DNA from: Verrucomicrobiota bacterium
Lineage (GTDB): Bacteria; Verrucomicrobiota; Verrucomicrobiia; Opitutales; UBA953
Assembly (NCBI GenBank): GCA_026397965.1
Contig: JAPLTU010000070.1
Location: 1 to 48,936 of the forward strand
Direction of reading: 5' to 3'
DNA: 48,936 nt
In this document: positions 27,149 through 31,995 of the stretch, piece after piece
Layout of the letters: each line of letters opens with the position of its first letter
How positions within the stretch are numbered: the stretch's first letter is position 1
Translations under genes and position numbers: made by a program
The notes under the pieces: model-generated
Database searches by the model: none
Seen by the model: the letters and a program-made list of their open reading frames with translations, nothing else
Told to the model about the DNA's origin: nothing

Positions 27149-28108
27149 ATGAGCACCCCGTTGCATCCCGAGCCCACCACGATGATACGCCGTCAGCGTA
27201 AAATCGAAGGGAGTTCTGCTATCCTCCTACCCTTCCATGCAAACGGCAATATCGACTGGGTAGGTTTCACCGCACACGTCCGCCGCACCGTCGCCGCCGG
27301 GCTAGCTCCGGCCGTCAATATGGATACGGGGTATGGCAATCTCATCGACGACTCGATCCGCCTACGCGCCTTACAAATCACCGAAACGGAGACGACCGGT
27401 AAATGGTTTGTCGCGGGCGCCTTCGTGCTTGATAAGCCTGGAGATGCCTTCGACCTCGGTGCTTACGCTCGCCAGATGGAGATGATCCAGCAACACGGCG
27501 GCACCCCGGTCATCTTCCAAAGCTACGGCCTGACCTCCCAGGCAGATGAAAAAATCGTGGATGCCTATGCCGCGATCGGTCGTCACGCCCCGCGTTTCAT
27601 CGGCTTCGAACTCGGACAGATGTTCGCTCCCTTTGGAAAGATCTATTCCTTGGACGTCTACCGTGGGCTCATGGACGTAAAACAGTGCATCGGCGCGAAG
27701 CATTCCTCATTACGACGCGACCTGGAGTGGGAGAGATTGGCGCTGCGTGATCAGACGCGCCCGGATTTTCGAGTATACACTGGTAACGACCTCGCCATCG
27801 ACATGGTCATGTATGGCAGCGATTACTTGCTCGGTTTAAGTACTTTTGCTCCTGAGGCCTTCGCCTTACGGGATAAGGCCTGGGAAAAAGGCGAGGCGTC
27901 ATTTTACGAAATCAATGACCTTTTGCAGTATCTCGGCTTCCTCGCCTTCCGCCCGCCCGTACCCGCCTACAAACATTCCGCCGCCATGTTCCTGAAGCTC
28001 CGCGGATGGCTGCAATGCGATGACACCCATCCGCTTTCGGCCAATCGTCCGGATTCTGACCGCGAAATCCTGGCGGATATCGCCAAACGCATCGCCGCCC
28101 TCAGCTAA
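27149..28108 (+). CDS. DapA/N-acetylneuraminate lyase-family aldolase or dehydratase
   Basis: Members form a Schiff base between a Lys and a 2-oxo acid to cleave or dehydrate it. The 319-aa protein has the TIM-barrel pattern: a start like other members ([16 protein letters not shown]), [11 protein letters not shown] in place of the usual GTTGE-type motif, and the likely Schiff-base Lys near 183 in [10 protein letters not shown]. After that comes [22 protein letters not shown]. The divergent motif suggests a subgroup distinct from true dihydrodipicolinate synthase, so it should not be called dapA. A Met 11 codons later (27182) is an alternative start. It precedes the OYE-like gene by 4 nt, in one operon. 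Confidence 0.82.
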
Positions 28109-28112
28109 ACCT

Positions 28113-29600
28113 ATGTCCGAACCTTTCAAACTTACCCGCGTCGCGTCGCTTAAGACCGTCGCGGATTTCCGCGCCCATTGCGCTTCCATCGGGATCGAAC
28201 TGCCGATTGAAGATACCATCGAAGCCGGAGCGGGCAACCCCCTCTCCCAGCCTATCTCTCAGAATAAAATCAACGGGAAGACCATCGGTAACCGCATCGC
28301 GATTCATCCCATGGAAGGTTGGGATGGGACGACTACCGGGGGCATCTCCGAAGAAATGAAACGTCGCTGGCAACGCTTCGGCGCCAGCGGTGCCAAACTC
28401 ATCTGCGGGGCGGAGGCCATGGCCGTGCGGGCGGACGGTCGTGCCAACATGAACCAACTCATCATCAATGATGAGAACAAAGCAGGCATCACCGAACTCG
28501 TCGGCATCCTCAAAGCCGAACACCTCGCCCGCTGGGGCTCGACGGATGATCTGGTCATCGGCTTTCAGCTCACGCACTCGGGACGCTTCTGTCGTCCCAA
28601 CGATAAGAAACGCTGGGAATCACGCATCGCCTACCGTCACCCAATCTTAGACAAGAAGTTTAACGTCACTTCCGACGATCAGGTCCTCACCGATGCCGAC
28701 GTCGAAGAATTGATTCGTTGTTATATTAAGGCCGCCCGCGTGGCCCGGGAATGCGGTGCCGACTTCGTAGACATCAAGCACTGTCACGGCTATCTGCTGC
28801 ATGAATTCCTCAGCGCCCACACCCGACCTGGCAAGTTCGGGGGCTCCTTCGAAAACCGGACTCGCATCCTGCGCGACATCATCGCCGGCATCCGGGCTGA
28901 AGGTAATCCCATTGATATCGGGGTGCGCCTCAGCCTCTTCGACTTCGTGCCATTCCGTCCGGACCCGGCGCTTTCGGTTCCAGGGCGACTCGGCCCCGGC
29001 ATCCCCGAAGAGCATGCGCATCTCCTTCCCTACCGTTTCGCCTTTGGGGCGAACCAGGAAAAACCCACGCAACCCGACCTATCCGAAACCTTCCAATTCG
29101 TGAACATGCTCGGCGAACTTGGGGTCAAGATCCTCAATACCTCCGCGGGCTCGCCCTATTACAATCCGCACATCCAACGCCCGGCGGCCTACCCGCCGAG
29201 CGATGGTTACCAAGCCGCGCACGACCCATTGATCGATTTGGCCCGCCAAGTGGATGCCGTGCGTCAGGTAAGATCCCGGGCGCCCAGCAGCCTGATCATC
29301 GTCAGCTCTGGGTTGAGTTATATCCAAGAATACCTGCCGCACCTCGCCCAATTCATTCTACGCAACAAGTGGAGCGATGCCATCGGCGTTGGGCGCGCGG
29401 TACTCAGCTACCCCAGCATGCTAGCGGATGCGGCGAAGAATGGCGCGATGGAGACCAAATTCATCTGCCGCACCTTCAGCGACTGCACGACTGCGCCGCG
29501 CAACGGGCTCATCTCTGGGTGTTACCCGTTAGACAAATTTTATACCGCCAAACCCGAATTCCAGCAGCTCAAAGAGATTAAGAAAAACGTCGGCGCCTGA
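28113..29600 (+). CDS. NADH:flavin oxidoreductase, Old Yellow Enzyme family
   Basis: The 495-aa protein from the ATG at 28113 carries the FMN-binding TIM barrel of the OYE family: IAIHPMEGWDG, QLTHSGRFCRP, the HCHGYLLHEFLS loop with its substrate-binding His and Tyr, and NRTRILRDIIAGIR. Near the end, SSGLSYIQEYLPH and AIGVGRAVLSYPSM match the phosphate-binding part. The 2-enoate reductase-like iron-sulfur domain found in longer members is not visible. Members reduce or isomerise activated C=C bonds in acids, steroids or aromatics. The frame opens upstream inside the DapA-like gene, but the ATG 4 nt after that gene's stop is clearly the start. The substrate is presumably the cluster's intermediate. 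Confidence 0.87.
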   Translation: MSEPFKLTRVASLKTVADFRAHCASIGIELPIEDTIEAGAGNPLSQPISQNKINGKTIGNRIAIHPMEGWDGTTTGGISEEMKRRWQRFGASGAKLICGAEAMAVRADGRANMNQLIINDENKAGITELVGILKAEHLARWGSTDDLVIGFQLTHSGRFCRPNDKKRWESRIAYRHPILDKKFNVTSDDQVLTDADVEELIRCYIKAARVARECGADFVDIKHCHGYLLHEFLSAHTRPGKFGGSFENRTRILRDIIAGIRAEGNPIDIGVRLSLFDFVPFRPDPALSVPGRLGPGIPEEHAHLLPYRFAFGANQEKPTQPDLSETFQFVNMLGELGVKILNTSAGSPYYNPHIQRPAAYPPSDGYQAAHDPLIDLARQVDAVRQVRSRAPSSLIIVSSGLSYIQEYLPHLAQFILRNKWSDAIGVGRAVLSYPSMLADAAKNGAMETKFICRTFSDCTTAPRNGLISGCYPLDKFYTAKPEFQQLKEIKKNVGA

Positions 29601-29604
29601 ACGA

Positions 29605-30252
29605 TTACGGGCGCTCGAAGATCATCAGGTGCTGCCAAGGCAAATCGGGCTTGTTCACCACGAACCTGAAGCCAGCCGCTTCGAATTCCTTACGTGCTTG
29701 GGCTTCGGTCATCTTGTGATGGGGCTTGATGGGGACGTGCGGATCTTCGGCCCGGTATTCCAGGAGATAGATGCGTCCCTTGGAGCGCAGGGCACGACGC
29801 AAGGAGGCCAGCATTTCAATCGGGTGGTCGAATTCGTGATAAGCATCGACCATCAAGGCGGCGTCAAGAGAGCCGTCGGGTAGTTTGACGTCTTCAAGGG
29901 TGCTCAGGTGAGGCTGCACATTCTTTATGCCGAGCTTAACGGATTCCTTCGTCAAAAAATCGATCATCTCTGGCTGGATATCGACCGCGACGACCTTGCC
30001 GCGGGGTAGTTTACGGGCGATGCGGAACGAATAGTAGCCTGAGCCGGCGCCGATGTCGGCAAGGACGGCGTCGGGCGCCAATTCAAGCAAAGCGATGGCC
30101 TTCGAGGGCGCTTCCTCTTTTTCGCGATCGGAGCGTTCGAGCCAACCGATACCCGGATGACCCATCACCTGAGCGATCTCACGGCCTTGATAGACCTTAC
30201 CAATCCCATCGGGAGAAGGCGGACAAACCTCGTAGCTAGGCTTAGTTCCCAT
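29605..30252 (-). CDS. Class I SAM-dependent methyltransferase, N-terminus displaced by a duplication
   Basis: The 215-aa frame has a full Rossmann methyltransferase core: VLADIGAGSGYYSFRIA (motif I), GKVVAVDIQPEMIDFL, LEDVKLPDGSLDAALMVDAYHE, and GRIYLLEYRAED. Both ends look complete except for the start. The ATG at 30252 exists only because of a 43-bp tandem duplication. The preceding 50 codons (30242-30394), in another frame, encode a membrane or signal segment and then the same residues TKPSYEVCPPSPDG. The ancestral gene was therefore probably one frame of about 248 codons ending at 29605, with an N-terminal anchor. Whether the truncated form is made, by restart at the overlapping ATG, is unknown. 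The substrate is unknown. Confidence 0.8.
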   Translation of the reverse strand: MGTKPSYEVCPPSPDGIGKVYQGREIAQVMGHPGIGWLERSDREKEEAPSKAIALLELAPDAVLADIGAGSGYYSFRIARKLPRGKVVAVDIQPEMIDFLTKESVKLGIKNVQPHLSTLEDVKLPDGSLDAALMVDAYHEFDHPIEMLASLRRALRSKGRIYLLEYRAEDPHVPIKPHHKMTEAQARKEFEAAGFRFVVNKPDLPWQHLMIFERP

Positions 30253-30290
30253 CGGGAGAAGGCGGACAAACCTCGTAGCTAGGCTTAGTT
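30204..30290. repeat. Perfect 43-bp tandem duplication in the methyltransferase gene
   Basis: Positions 30204-30246 are repeated exactly at 30247-30289, and one more base also matches. The unit starts TCCCATCGGGAGAAGG. Since 43 is not a multiple of three, the second copy shifts the reading frame and separates the N-terminal segment from the methyltransferase domain. Confidence 0.97.
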
Positions 30291-30394
30291 GCCGGCAACT
30301 CGGGGGTGGCGGAAACTGGCCGAGTCCAAAAATAGAGACCGAAAGCCATGCTCAACAACATGACCGAGTAAATCAGCGGATAACGGTGGAGCAT
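30242..30394 (-). pseudogene. Detached N-terminal segment (signal or membrane anchor) of the methyltransferase
   Basis: From an ATG at 30394 the frame encodes 50 aa: a short basic start, a hydrophobic stretch (about 7-23), a possible cut near PVSA, and then TKPSYEVCPPSPDG, identical to residues 3-16 of the methyltransferase frame. An in-frame stop lies upstream of the ATG, so this is the true gene start. The frame stops at a TAA (30242-30244) created by the duplication. Removing one 43-bp copy would restore a continuous methyltransferase with this anchor. Confidence 0.75.
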
Positions 30395-30509: not shown

Positions 30510-30749
30510 TTACTTTTTCGCTGGGGCGTTGCACTTTTCGCAAACCTTGCCGTCCGCCGCAGCCTTGACGCAGCAAGGATGTTGGCATTTTTCGCCCTTT
30601 TTATCGGCCTTATCGCAGCAACTACCGGCCTTAAACTTCGAGGACTCTTTGGTCGTCGTAGCTGGTTTGACGTCAGGCGAAGGAGAGGCTGCAAAAGCGA
30701 CCGAAGCGCAGACTAGGGCGACAACCAGCAGGGAGGTGAGTTGTTTCAT
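30510..30749 (-). CDS. Small secreted Cys-rich protein
   Basis: From the ATG at 30749 the protein has 79 aa: a clear signal peptide (MKQLTSLLVVALVCASVAFA), then a Lys-rich region with SCCDKADKK, CQHPCCVKAA and VCEKCNAPAKK. The eight Cys of the mature part come in CC and CxxC arrangements next to a His, which suggests metal binding or disulfides. I do not recognise a named family. It lies 52 nt downstream of the chromate-type transporter on the same strand... more exactly, chrA ends before it in reverse order: this gene is upstream of chrA's neighbour on the minus strand and has no visible operon partner with certainty. Confidence 0.65.
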   Translation of the reverse strand: MKQLTSLLVVALVCASVAFAASPSPDVKPATTTKESSKFKAGSCCDKADKKGEKCQHPCCVKAAADGKVCEKCNAPAKK

Positions 30750-30801
30750 GGTAGGTAAACGTTGGTGCAAAGCTGGAAATTAACAAACTGATTTCACTAA
30801 T

Positions 30802-31995
30802 TTATCGGGCCGCGAACCAGCCCACCGCGGCGCCCAGGGCGACCAAGAGGAGGATATTCGTCTTTTTAAGGTAAAGCGCCGCACCCGCGGCGACTGAAAT
30901 CAAGAGGTAGACCCAGGTCATCTGCGAGAGCACCAAGGAAAGCCCCAGCCAAAATATGGCACCCGCAGCGGCGGCGGTCACCAGCCCGATCACATCATGA
31001 AAACGGACATCCCCTAGCCCCTCGTCAGCCAGCGGAGCGGTGGCGAGCAAGATGAGGGTGGAACAACTAAACGTAAAAATCGCCGGCACCAGGAGACCGA
31101 CCAAAGCGGCCATCCAGCCACCACCCATGCCGAGGCTGCCGTTATAACCAGCCATGCAACCGATGAAACTACCGGCGAGCAGCAGCGGGCCAGGAGTGAT
31201 TTCACCGACCACCAATGCATCGCCAAAAACAGGCTCCTTGATCCAGCCATAAGTTTCGACCGTGCGCGCTTTCCATACTCCCAGCGCAGCGTAAGCGCCG
31301 CCAAAAGAAGTCAGCACCGCGATCAGAGAAACCTCGGCAAGCTTAACGACACCGGAGTCGTGACCGAAAATTGCCCAAAGCACCAAAAAGACGGCACCGA
31401 CTGGAATCAGGAAACGCAGCACCCGGATGGCGGCAGACTTCAAGACTTCGGACGTTTCGGGCACAGCTTCTTCATCGGGCGGACGGATATACCAGGCATA
31501 GAGACCTGCCGCCACCGCCATAAAGGCGAAAGGAGCACTGAAATACATGCCTATCGCAGTGACACCAGCGACCACTCGGCGAGGCGTATCAAAGACGGCG
31601 GTCTTAAACAGACGGTAAGCCATGACCAGAATGACGCCAGCAACCGCAGCTCGGGCGCCAGAGAGCGCACCGCCGATCAGAGGACGTTGACCAAACTGGT
31701 GGTATAAAAATGCCAAGACGGCGCAACAAAGCAGACCCGGAATCACAAAGAAGAGCGTGGCCAAAACGGCGCTGCGCCAGCCACCCTTCTTCCAGGCAAT
31801 CCAAGCGACCAGTTGCTGGGCTTCGGGGCCGGGCAAGAACATGCAAAGCCCTAAGGCGCGGGAGAATTGTTCTTGCGACAACCAAGAGCGCTTTTCGACG
31901 CACTCCTGCTCAAGGGTCGCAATCTGCGCGGCTGGGCCGCCCAGCGAAGTCGCGCCCAAGCGCAACCAAAGGAGCCAATCGGACAGGGGTATCAT
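30802..31995 (-). CDS. chrA: Chromate transporter family protein (ChrA, two-domain form)
   Basis: The 397-aa protein is a membrane protein of the CHR family, which exports chromate in characterised members. It is the long form with two homologous halves, each with its own GG motif: GATSLGGPAAQIATLEQ near 14-30 in the first half and TSFGGAYAALGVWK in the second. The first half also has FLPGPEAQQL and the second VGEITPGPLLLAG, the duplicated PGP motif. About ten hydrophobic segments are visible. Many ChrA homologs are found without chromate exposure, so the true substrate may be sulfate or another anion. The ATG at 31995 starts directly with the first domain. On the minus strand, the 79-aa Cys-rich gene begins 52 nt after its stop. 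Confidence 0.9.
   Translation of the reverse strand: MIPLSDWLLWLRLGATSLGGPAAQIATLEQECVEKRSWLSQEQFSRALGLCMFLPGPEAQQLVAWIAWKKGGWRSAVLATLFFVIPGLLCCAVLAFLYHQFGQRPLIGGALSGARAAVAGVILVMAYRLFKTAVFDTPRRVVAGVTAIGMYFSAPFAFMAVAAGLYAWYIRPPDEEAVPETSEVLKSAAIRVLRFLIPVGAVFLVLWAIFGHDSGVVKLAEVSLIAVLTSFGGAYAALGVWKARTVETYGWIKEPVFGDALVVGEITPGPLLLAGSFIGCMAGYNGSLGMGGGWMAALVGLLVPAIFTFSCSTLILLATAPLADEGLGDVRFHDVIGLVTAAAAGAIFWLGLSLVLSQMTWVYLLISVAAGAALYLKKTNILLLVALGAAVGWFAAR

Follow-up and report, generated by a model that had tools for sequence, protein, structure and literature searches.

Among the closest described counterparts of the locus analyzed here are pneumococcal capsule genes, in which phase variation by spontaneous tandem duplication has been reported for the type 3 capsule locus, cap8E and tts (Waite et al. 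2001, 2003, as cited in PMC4022640). For spontaneous duplications in Salmonella, the cited part of PMC3411829 reports that five of the eight tested were confirmed, all with junction homology of at least 11 bp, none in the test having less than 7 bp. Duplicated sequence may also be produced by assembly. As far as the cited passages of Chen et al. (2020, PMC7111523) go, IDBA-UD and CLC assemblies can leave an overlap unmerged at N gaps, which duplicates the sequence, and assemblies from metagenomes can contain wrong repeat numbers; the corresponding passages of PMC6868369 discuss mainly the collapse of tandem repeats.

The present locus, found in a draft genome of a Verrucomicrobiota bacterium, resembles the pneumococcal genes described in those sources in that an exact tandem duplication lies in an open frame, breaks it and could revert. 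It differs from them in that a complete downstream frame remains, and it is known from one draft sequence rather than from two alleles in a population, reversion or a phenotype. The Salmonella duplications reported in the cited part of PMC3411829 are another kind of event; still, the junction homology of 1 bp observed here is short. As in the assemblies treated in the cited passages of Chen et al. (2020, PMC7111523), the same draft holds one N gap with 20-bp duplicates, whereas no N stands between the two 43-bp copies.

The duplicated methyltransferase locus and its relatives

Within the analyzed stretch of DNA (the window, 48,936 bp), Tandem Repeats Finder reported an array of period 43 with a 100% match, consisting of two 43-bp units plus one base, together with a weak overlapping second row, and a lag-43 scan of the array gave 44 matching bases (Table 1). 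An exact repeat of 43 bases is beyond chance. The duplication is confirmed in the assembled sequence; the original prediction had placed it at 30204-30289, and it extends to 30290. A direct scan for exact tandem duplications of period 12-399 found no other in the window, which contains no N letters.

Table 1. Features of the locus and of the own genome discussed in the text
Feature	Position	Strand	Basis or remark
Exact tandem duplication	30204-30246 + 30247-30289 + base 30290	-	Tandem Repeats Finder, lag-43 scan
Severed N-terminal frame, 50 aa	30242..30394 (ATG 30394, TAA 30244-30242)	-	frame list
Methyltransferase frame, 215 aa	29605..30252 (ATG 30252-30250)	-	frame list, profiles, model
Mosaic tract in methyltransferase, 112 bp	29998..30109 (outer limits 29957-30131)	-	diagnostic sites, run test, trees
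Small Cys-rich protein, signal-like start	30510..30770	-	upstream neighbour; aligned part conserved in three sisters
Oxidored_FMN (old yellow enzyme-like) gene	28020..29600	+	convergent; aligned 3' end conserved in sisters
92-bp perfect tandem duplication	L180:15344-15528 (contig C30, own genome)		frames of 625 + 4376 aa
25-bp perfect tandem duplication	L187:11754-11804 (contig C37, own genome)		in 214-aa frame
Nine-N gap with unmerged 20-bp overlap	L124:12047-12096 (contig C13, own genome)

The length of 43 is not divisible by three; the second copy therefore causes a frameshift, and because of it the upstream frame reaches its TAA after a short basic start, a hydrophobic segment and a linker. 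In the window, the N-terminal hydrophobic segment is thus out of frame with the methyltransferase domain. The two frames share 11 bases, and the ATG of the methyltransferase frame begins 8 bases ahead of the TAA; contrary to the original prediction, it is the frames and not these two codons that overlap. No Shine-Dalgarno-like stretch was seen by eye before ATG 30252 or ATG 30394. Upstream, the Cys-rich gene, which gave no Pfam or NCBIfam match, sits between the methyltransferase gene and a chromate transporter gene (30802-31995), and on the other side the stops of the Oxidored_FMN and methyltransferase genes are four bases apart.

The 215-aa product matched the Methyltransf_31, Methyltransf_25 and Methyltransf_11 profiles above cut-off (57.3 bits against a cut-off of 27 for PF13847), and the 25 NCBIfam matches listed, of 30, were all below cut-off. 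The closest solved protein by sequence is 3dh0 of Aquifex aeolicus (E 1.4e-16), which is also the best fold match (TM 0.81 by query, 0.92 by target) of a model built from a 35-sequence alignment (mean pLDDT 93.7, pTM 0.90). Residues D66, G68, A69, G70 and G72 are invariant across the 35 aligned sequences, and the motif D-I-G-A-G-S-G is presumably the Gly-rich SAM loop. Profiles and model together indicate that the protein is a predicted class I SAM-dependent methyltransferase with a Rossmann-like fold and that the 215-aa frame is a complete predicted domain that lacks only the N-terminal segment. It differs from 3dh0, whose titles name no function, in that the two share 23% identity and in that its own relatives bear an N-terminal anchor or signal-like segment. 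The fold matches also include 3ocj, which has the PDB title "possible exported protein".

Matches at E ≤ 0.001 were present in 50 of 57 genomes, a count that takes in the own genome as well as weaker methyltransferase paralogues. We compared 109 relative loci, of which 29 came from the genome search and the others were the best 80 of at least 491 named relatives, with titles that are mostly those of Opitutae, Verrucomicrobia and Akkermansiaceae MAGs; this set includes the same genome from two collections and holds 87 distinct methyltransferase sequences. None of the 109 loci has an exact tandem duplication of period 25 or more, and the exact repeats seen among them have periods of 12-24 only and lie outside the 5' part of the methyltransferase gene. 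The methyltransferase frame runs unbroken into an N-terminal segment in every one of the 108 loci with a complete 5' end, so that independent gene breaks in relatives, a candidate that was also considered, are rejected there. An in-frame hydrophobic segment exceeds the threshold in 105 of the 109 loci; of the rest, L031, L052 and L101 begin with what by eye is a short signal-like segment, and L106 is truncated at a contig end. In a recount by distinct sequence, the hydrophobic cut-off was reached in 81 of 87. Segment charge (64 inside-positive, 14 equal and 3 opposite) is a rough measure, some segments having been chosen upstream of the likely start, and was not used.

In the three closest relatives among the matches listed (UBA7397, PowLak16_MAG4 and Ja_bin-5246; 95% protein identity), the locus aligns along 1.1 kb, 43 bp are missing at the array, and the anchor and the methyltransferase form one frame. 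In nine further genomes of this genus the frames are open and 254-377 aa long, as judged by frame length only. The expectation that ATG 30394 opens a frame with a hydrophobic N-terminus is borne out, the same segment being in frame with the methyltransferase in those three relatives, and their alignments likewise uphold the view that the one-copy gene encodes a single anchored methyltransferase which the second copy splits. The comparison with close relatives that the original prediction proposed gave one copy and a single frame, and the two-copy state is not common to relatives. By sequence comparison, the one-copy, single-gene form is the ancestral state and its N-terminal segment is conserved, and the two-copy form is private to this draft among the genomes read.

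The two 43-bp copies are identical, and the unit differs from that of three sisters at 6, 5 and 8 of its 43 bases. The duplication hence looks younger than the species split, although 43 bases date nothing more closely. Codon changes in the methyltransferase relative to the three sisters were synonymous in 45 of 52, 49 of 55 and 59 of 66 cases, leaving 7, 6 and 7 non-synonymous ones, and in the severed anchor frame only 3-4 of 34 codons differ non-synonymously. This codon comparison revealed no sign of decay in either frame.

Other duplications, gaps and a mosaic tract in the draft

The window and 60 further stretches, amounting to 1,070,856 readable bases or about half of the genome, contain three exact tandem duplications with a period of at least 25 (namely 25, 43 and 92 bp). 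Each lies inside an open frame and breaks a gene, and no period is divisible by three. The 92-bp duplication sits in a giant surface-protein-like gene, now split; the only good match to this region among ten related genomes, in the sister draft G024, has one copy and an open frame through the 3.4-kb locus. The gene with the 25-bp duplication is full-length in two of ten related genomes (G028 and G024), with one copy and a whole frame in both. In the control, 824,405 bases of related genomes, one duplication of at least 25 bp was found, a perfect 111-bp one in the sister genome G009 (L232:3689-3910). A raised duplication rate in this assembly was considered as well, and the difference was not significant (three in 1.07 Mb against one in 0.82 Mb, p = 0.42), with slightly different scan thresholds and a control total that includes 4,357 N. 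Shorter exact repeats, outside this count, had periods of 20, 20, 18 and 12 in the own genome and 24 in the control.

Seven short internal N gaps occur in the sampled contigs, short N runs being read here as scaffold gaps that could instead be operator masking, and one of them is flanked on both sides by identical 20 bases, which suggests a scaffolding error here. Such an overlap is absent from all 33 internal gaps of G024. In the stretches of G010, a related draft, identical 55-bp ends flank three of seven 100-N gaps (L249, L255 and L257), and these ends are assembler overlap left in the draft. The genome studied here is rated 96% complete with 1.1% contamination. A foreign or contaminating contig was rejected as an explanation, as alignments of the window with three sister genomes extend over 12-19 kb at 92-97%.

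Further examination of the methyltransferase gene revealed a mosaic tract that begins 95 bp downstream of the array. It was delimited with 57 diagnostic sites from a gapped alignment, at which the window was compared with three sisters and seven other members of the genus. Down to 30132 the sites are sister-like with the sole exception of 30178; from 30109 to 29998 all 12 match the other genus lineage; beyond the tract 33 of 35 are sister-like and the other two match neither group. Nine of the ten other-lineage codons are contiguous, which none of 200,000 shuffles equalled, the tract limits having been chosen on the same data that were used for the run test and the trees. Identity of the window to each sister is 78% between 30135 and 29985, where the seven others reach 83-88%; below 29985 the sisters reach 93-95% and the seven others 74-79%. 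Against 30 relatives, the 112-bp tract reaches 87-89% identity to L011, L012, L009, L006 and L008, compared with 74-75% to the sisters. In the tract tree the window groups with L011, L009 and L012 at a low support of 0.50. The flanks share 92-95% identity with the sisters, with which they cluster in the flank tree (support 1.00), a tree in which the seven reference loci form no strict clade.

Private changes are denser in the tract than anywhere else among 555 overlapping scan windows covering 5.8 kb, and the changes in the tract leave the protein sensible. No donor was found for it in a search of 79 family genomes, of which 38 matched (the own genome included), the best foreign match being 89%. 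A divergence scan with a cut-off of 22% missed the tract (21.9% to sisters) and flagged four other patches in the window, all without a duplication. Elsewhere in the genome, the 25-bp duplication directly adjoins an 86-bp patch that is 78% identical to both sisters, with flanks 100% and 96% identical to the nearer one; another divergent stretch, without a duplication of its own, lies about 1.1 kb upstream. When the donor of the 86-bp patch was sought among the 79 genomes, only the two sisters matched most of the query. On one side of the 92-bp duplication the alignment is too divergent for this comparison, which covers the 43-bp and 25-bp cases. Chimeric assembly among related species and real short-tract recombination would each give a duplication and a patch together. 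Because divergent patches also occur without duplications, the neighbourhood of tract and duplication in these two cases may be due to chance.

Origin of the second copy

We favour a local mis-assembly or chimeric join over a real mutation as the origin of the second copy, giving this explanation about an even chance. In its normal form the gene is a single frame: a class I SAM-dependent methyltransferase preceded by a linker and, at the N-terminus, by a hydrophobic anchor or signal segment. A mis-join or chimeric path in a mix of closely related species would have repeated a short overlap and also brought a short stretch of the allele of a related species into the methyltransferase gene; we infer a single assembly process behind the duplications, the tract and the unmerged overlap. 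The cell would then make an ordinary anchored methyltransferase, with the two-frame layout and the restart codon as by-products. Such a fault is suggested by the two further frame-breaking duplications and the unmerged 20-bp overlap in the same assembly, by the lack of any duplication in the 109 relative loci and the unbroken frame in the 108 with a complete 5' end, by the whole, single-copy versions of the 25-bp and 92-bp regions in related genomes, by the closeness of the tract to the array and of the patch to the 25-bp duplication, and by a junction homology of only 1 bp. On the other hand, the join lacks the N of the documented overlap error, completeness is high and contamination low, the duplication rate does not significantly exceed that in related genomes, both flanks of the tract are sister-like and its protein is kept sensible, as real recombination would have it, divergent patches also occur without duplications, and the gaps of G024 are free of unmerged overlaps. 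Short-read assemblers lose repeat copies more often than they add them.

A real and very recent tandem duplication, carried by the strain or by the majority strain of the sample and breaking the gene as an ordinary loss or relocation mutation, is a substantial possibility, if a somewhat doubtful one. Its products would be an anchor peptide of 50 aa and, provided that re-initiation close to the overlapping stop uses the ATG in the repeat, a methyltransferase without anchor in the cytoplasm; slippage between the two copies could restore the gene. The identity of the copies in a unit that has diverged from the sisters is consistent with such an event, as are the otherwise intact anchor and methyltransferase with their mostly synonymous codon changes, the complete predicted domain, a duplication rate like that of related drafts and a neighbouring tract that could be real recombination; intragenic tandem duplications do arise in bacteria, as the cited passages of PMC4022640 describe for pneumococcal wchA. 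The other gene-breaking duplications and the unmerged overlap in the same assembly argue against it, and so does the lack of a purine-rich Shine-Dalgarno-like stretch before the inner ATG, although ATG 30394 lacks one as well. It is also conceivable, though unlikely, that real cross-species exchange of very short tracts among related bacteria living together leaves adjoining small tandem duplications, repeatedly breaking genes and, by slippage, restoring them, which would here free into the cytoplasm a methyltransferase that is otherwise exported or bound to the membrane. Of the three causes in the original prediction, a recent mutation and an assembly error both stand, the latter having gained some support, while the reversible switch gained none. 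Such a localisation switch, in which the enzyme would be anchored when there is one copy and free in the cytoplasm when there are two, the population containing both forms, is permitted by the layout, in which an out-of-frame exact repeat is followed by a complete second frame with an ATG just before the upstream stop; the length of the exact duplication within an open gene is not a multiple of three, the one-copy allele of the closest relatives, which are other species, is intact, and pneumococcal capsule genes are reported to vary in this way (Waite et al. 2001, 2003, as cited in PMC4022640). We nevertheless consider it very unlikely. Exact repeats are absent at the site in all 109 relative loci, which rejects a conserved switch, and proneness of the site to duplication across the lineage was seen in none of them; the one-copy sequence offers only 1 bp of homology as a seed, and nothing marks the site as built for slippage. 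A start codon near the join would mean little, start codons being common, and the two other frame-breaking duplications in the assembly argue for an unspecific cause. The least probable reading is a fixed and selected gene split, by which the lineage would have given up the anchor and used the methyltransferase in the cytoplasm: an intact and conserved methyltransferase frame would fit, but the severed anchor frame is without visible decay, the two copies are still identical, and all 108 relatives with a complete 5' end bear a hydrophobic or signal-like N-terminal segment, three of them judged by eye.

Bearing on drafts and on the methyltransferase family

If the favoured assembly fault is the cause, the locus is a caution: exact tandem duplications would account for three apparent breaks of genes in roughly half of a draft, and a split gene in a draft of this kind is not to be taken for a switch without reads. 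A real duplication would be an example of duplication beside short-tract recombination between species. For the family itself, a search of the open-access literature with a few phrases found no exported methyltransferases of this kind in print, which is not proof of absence. SAM is a cytoplasmic cofactor. The anchor or signal-like segment present in nearly all loci read of the family, which comes mostly from Verrucomicrobiota drafts, is odd for an enzyme that needs such a cofactor, and it poses a question about these predicted methyltransferases.
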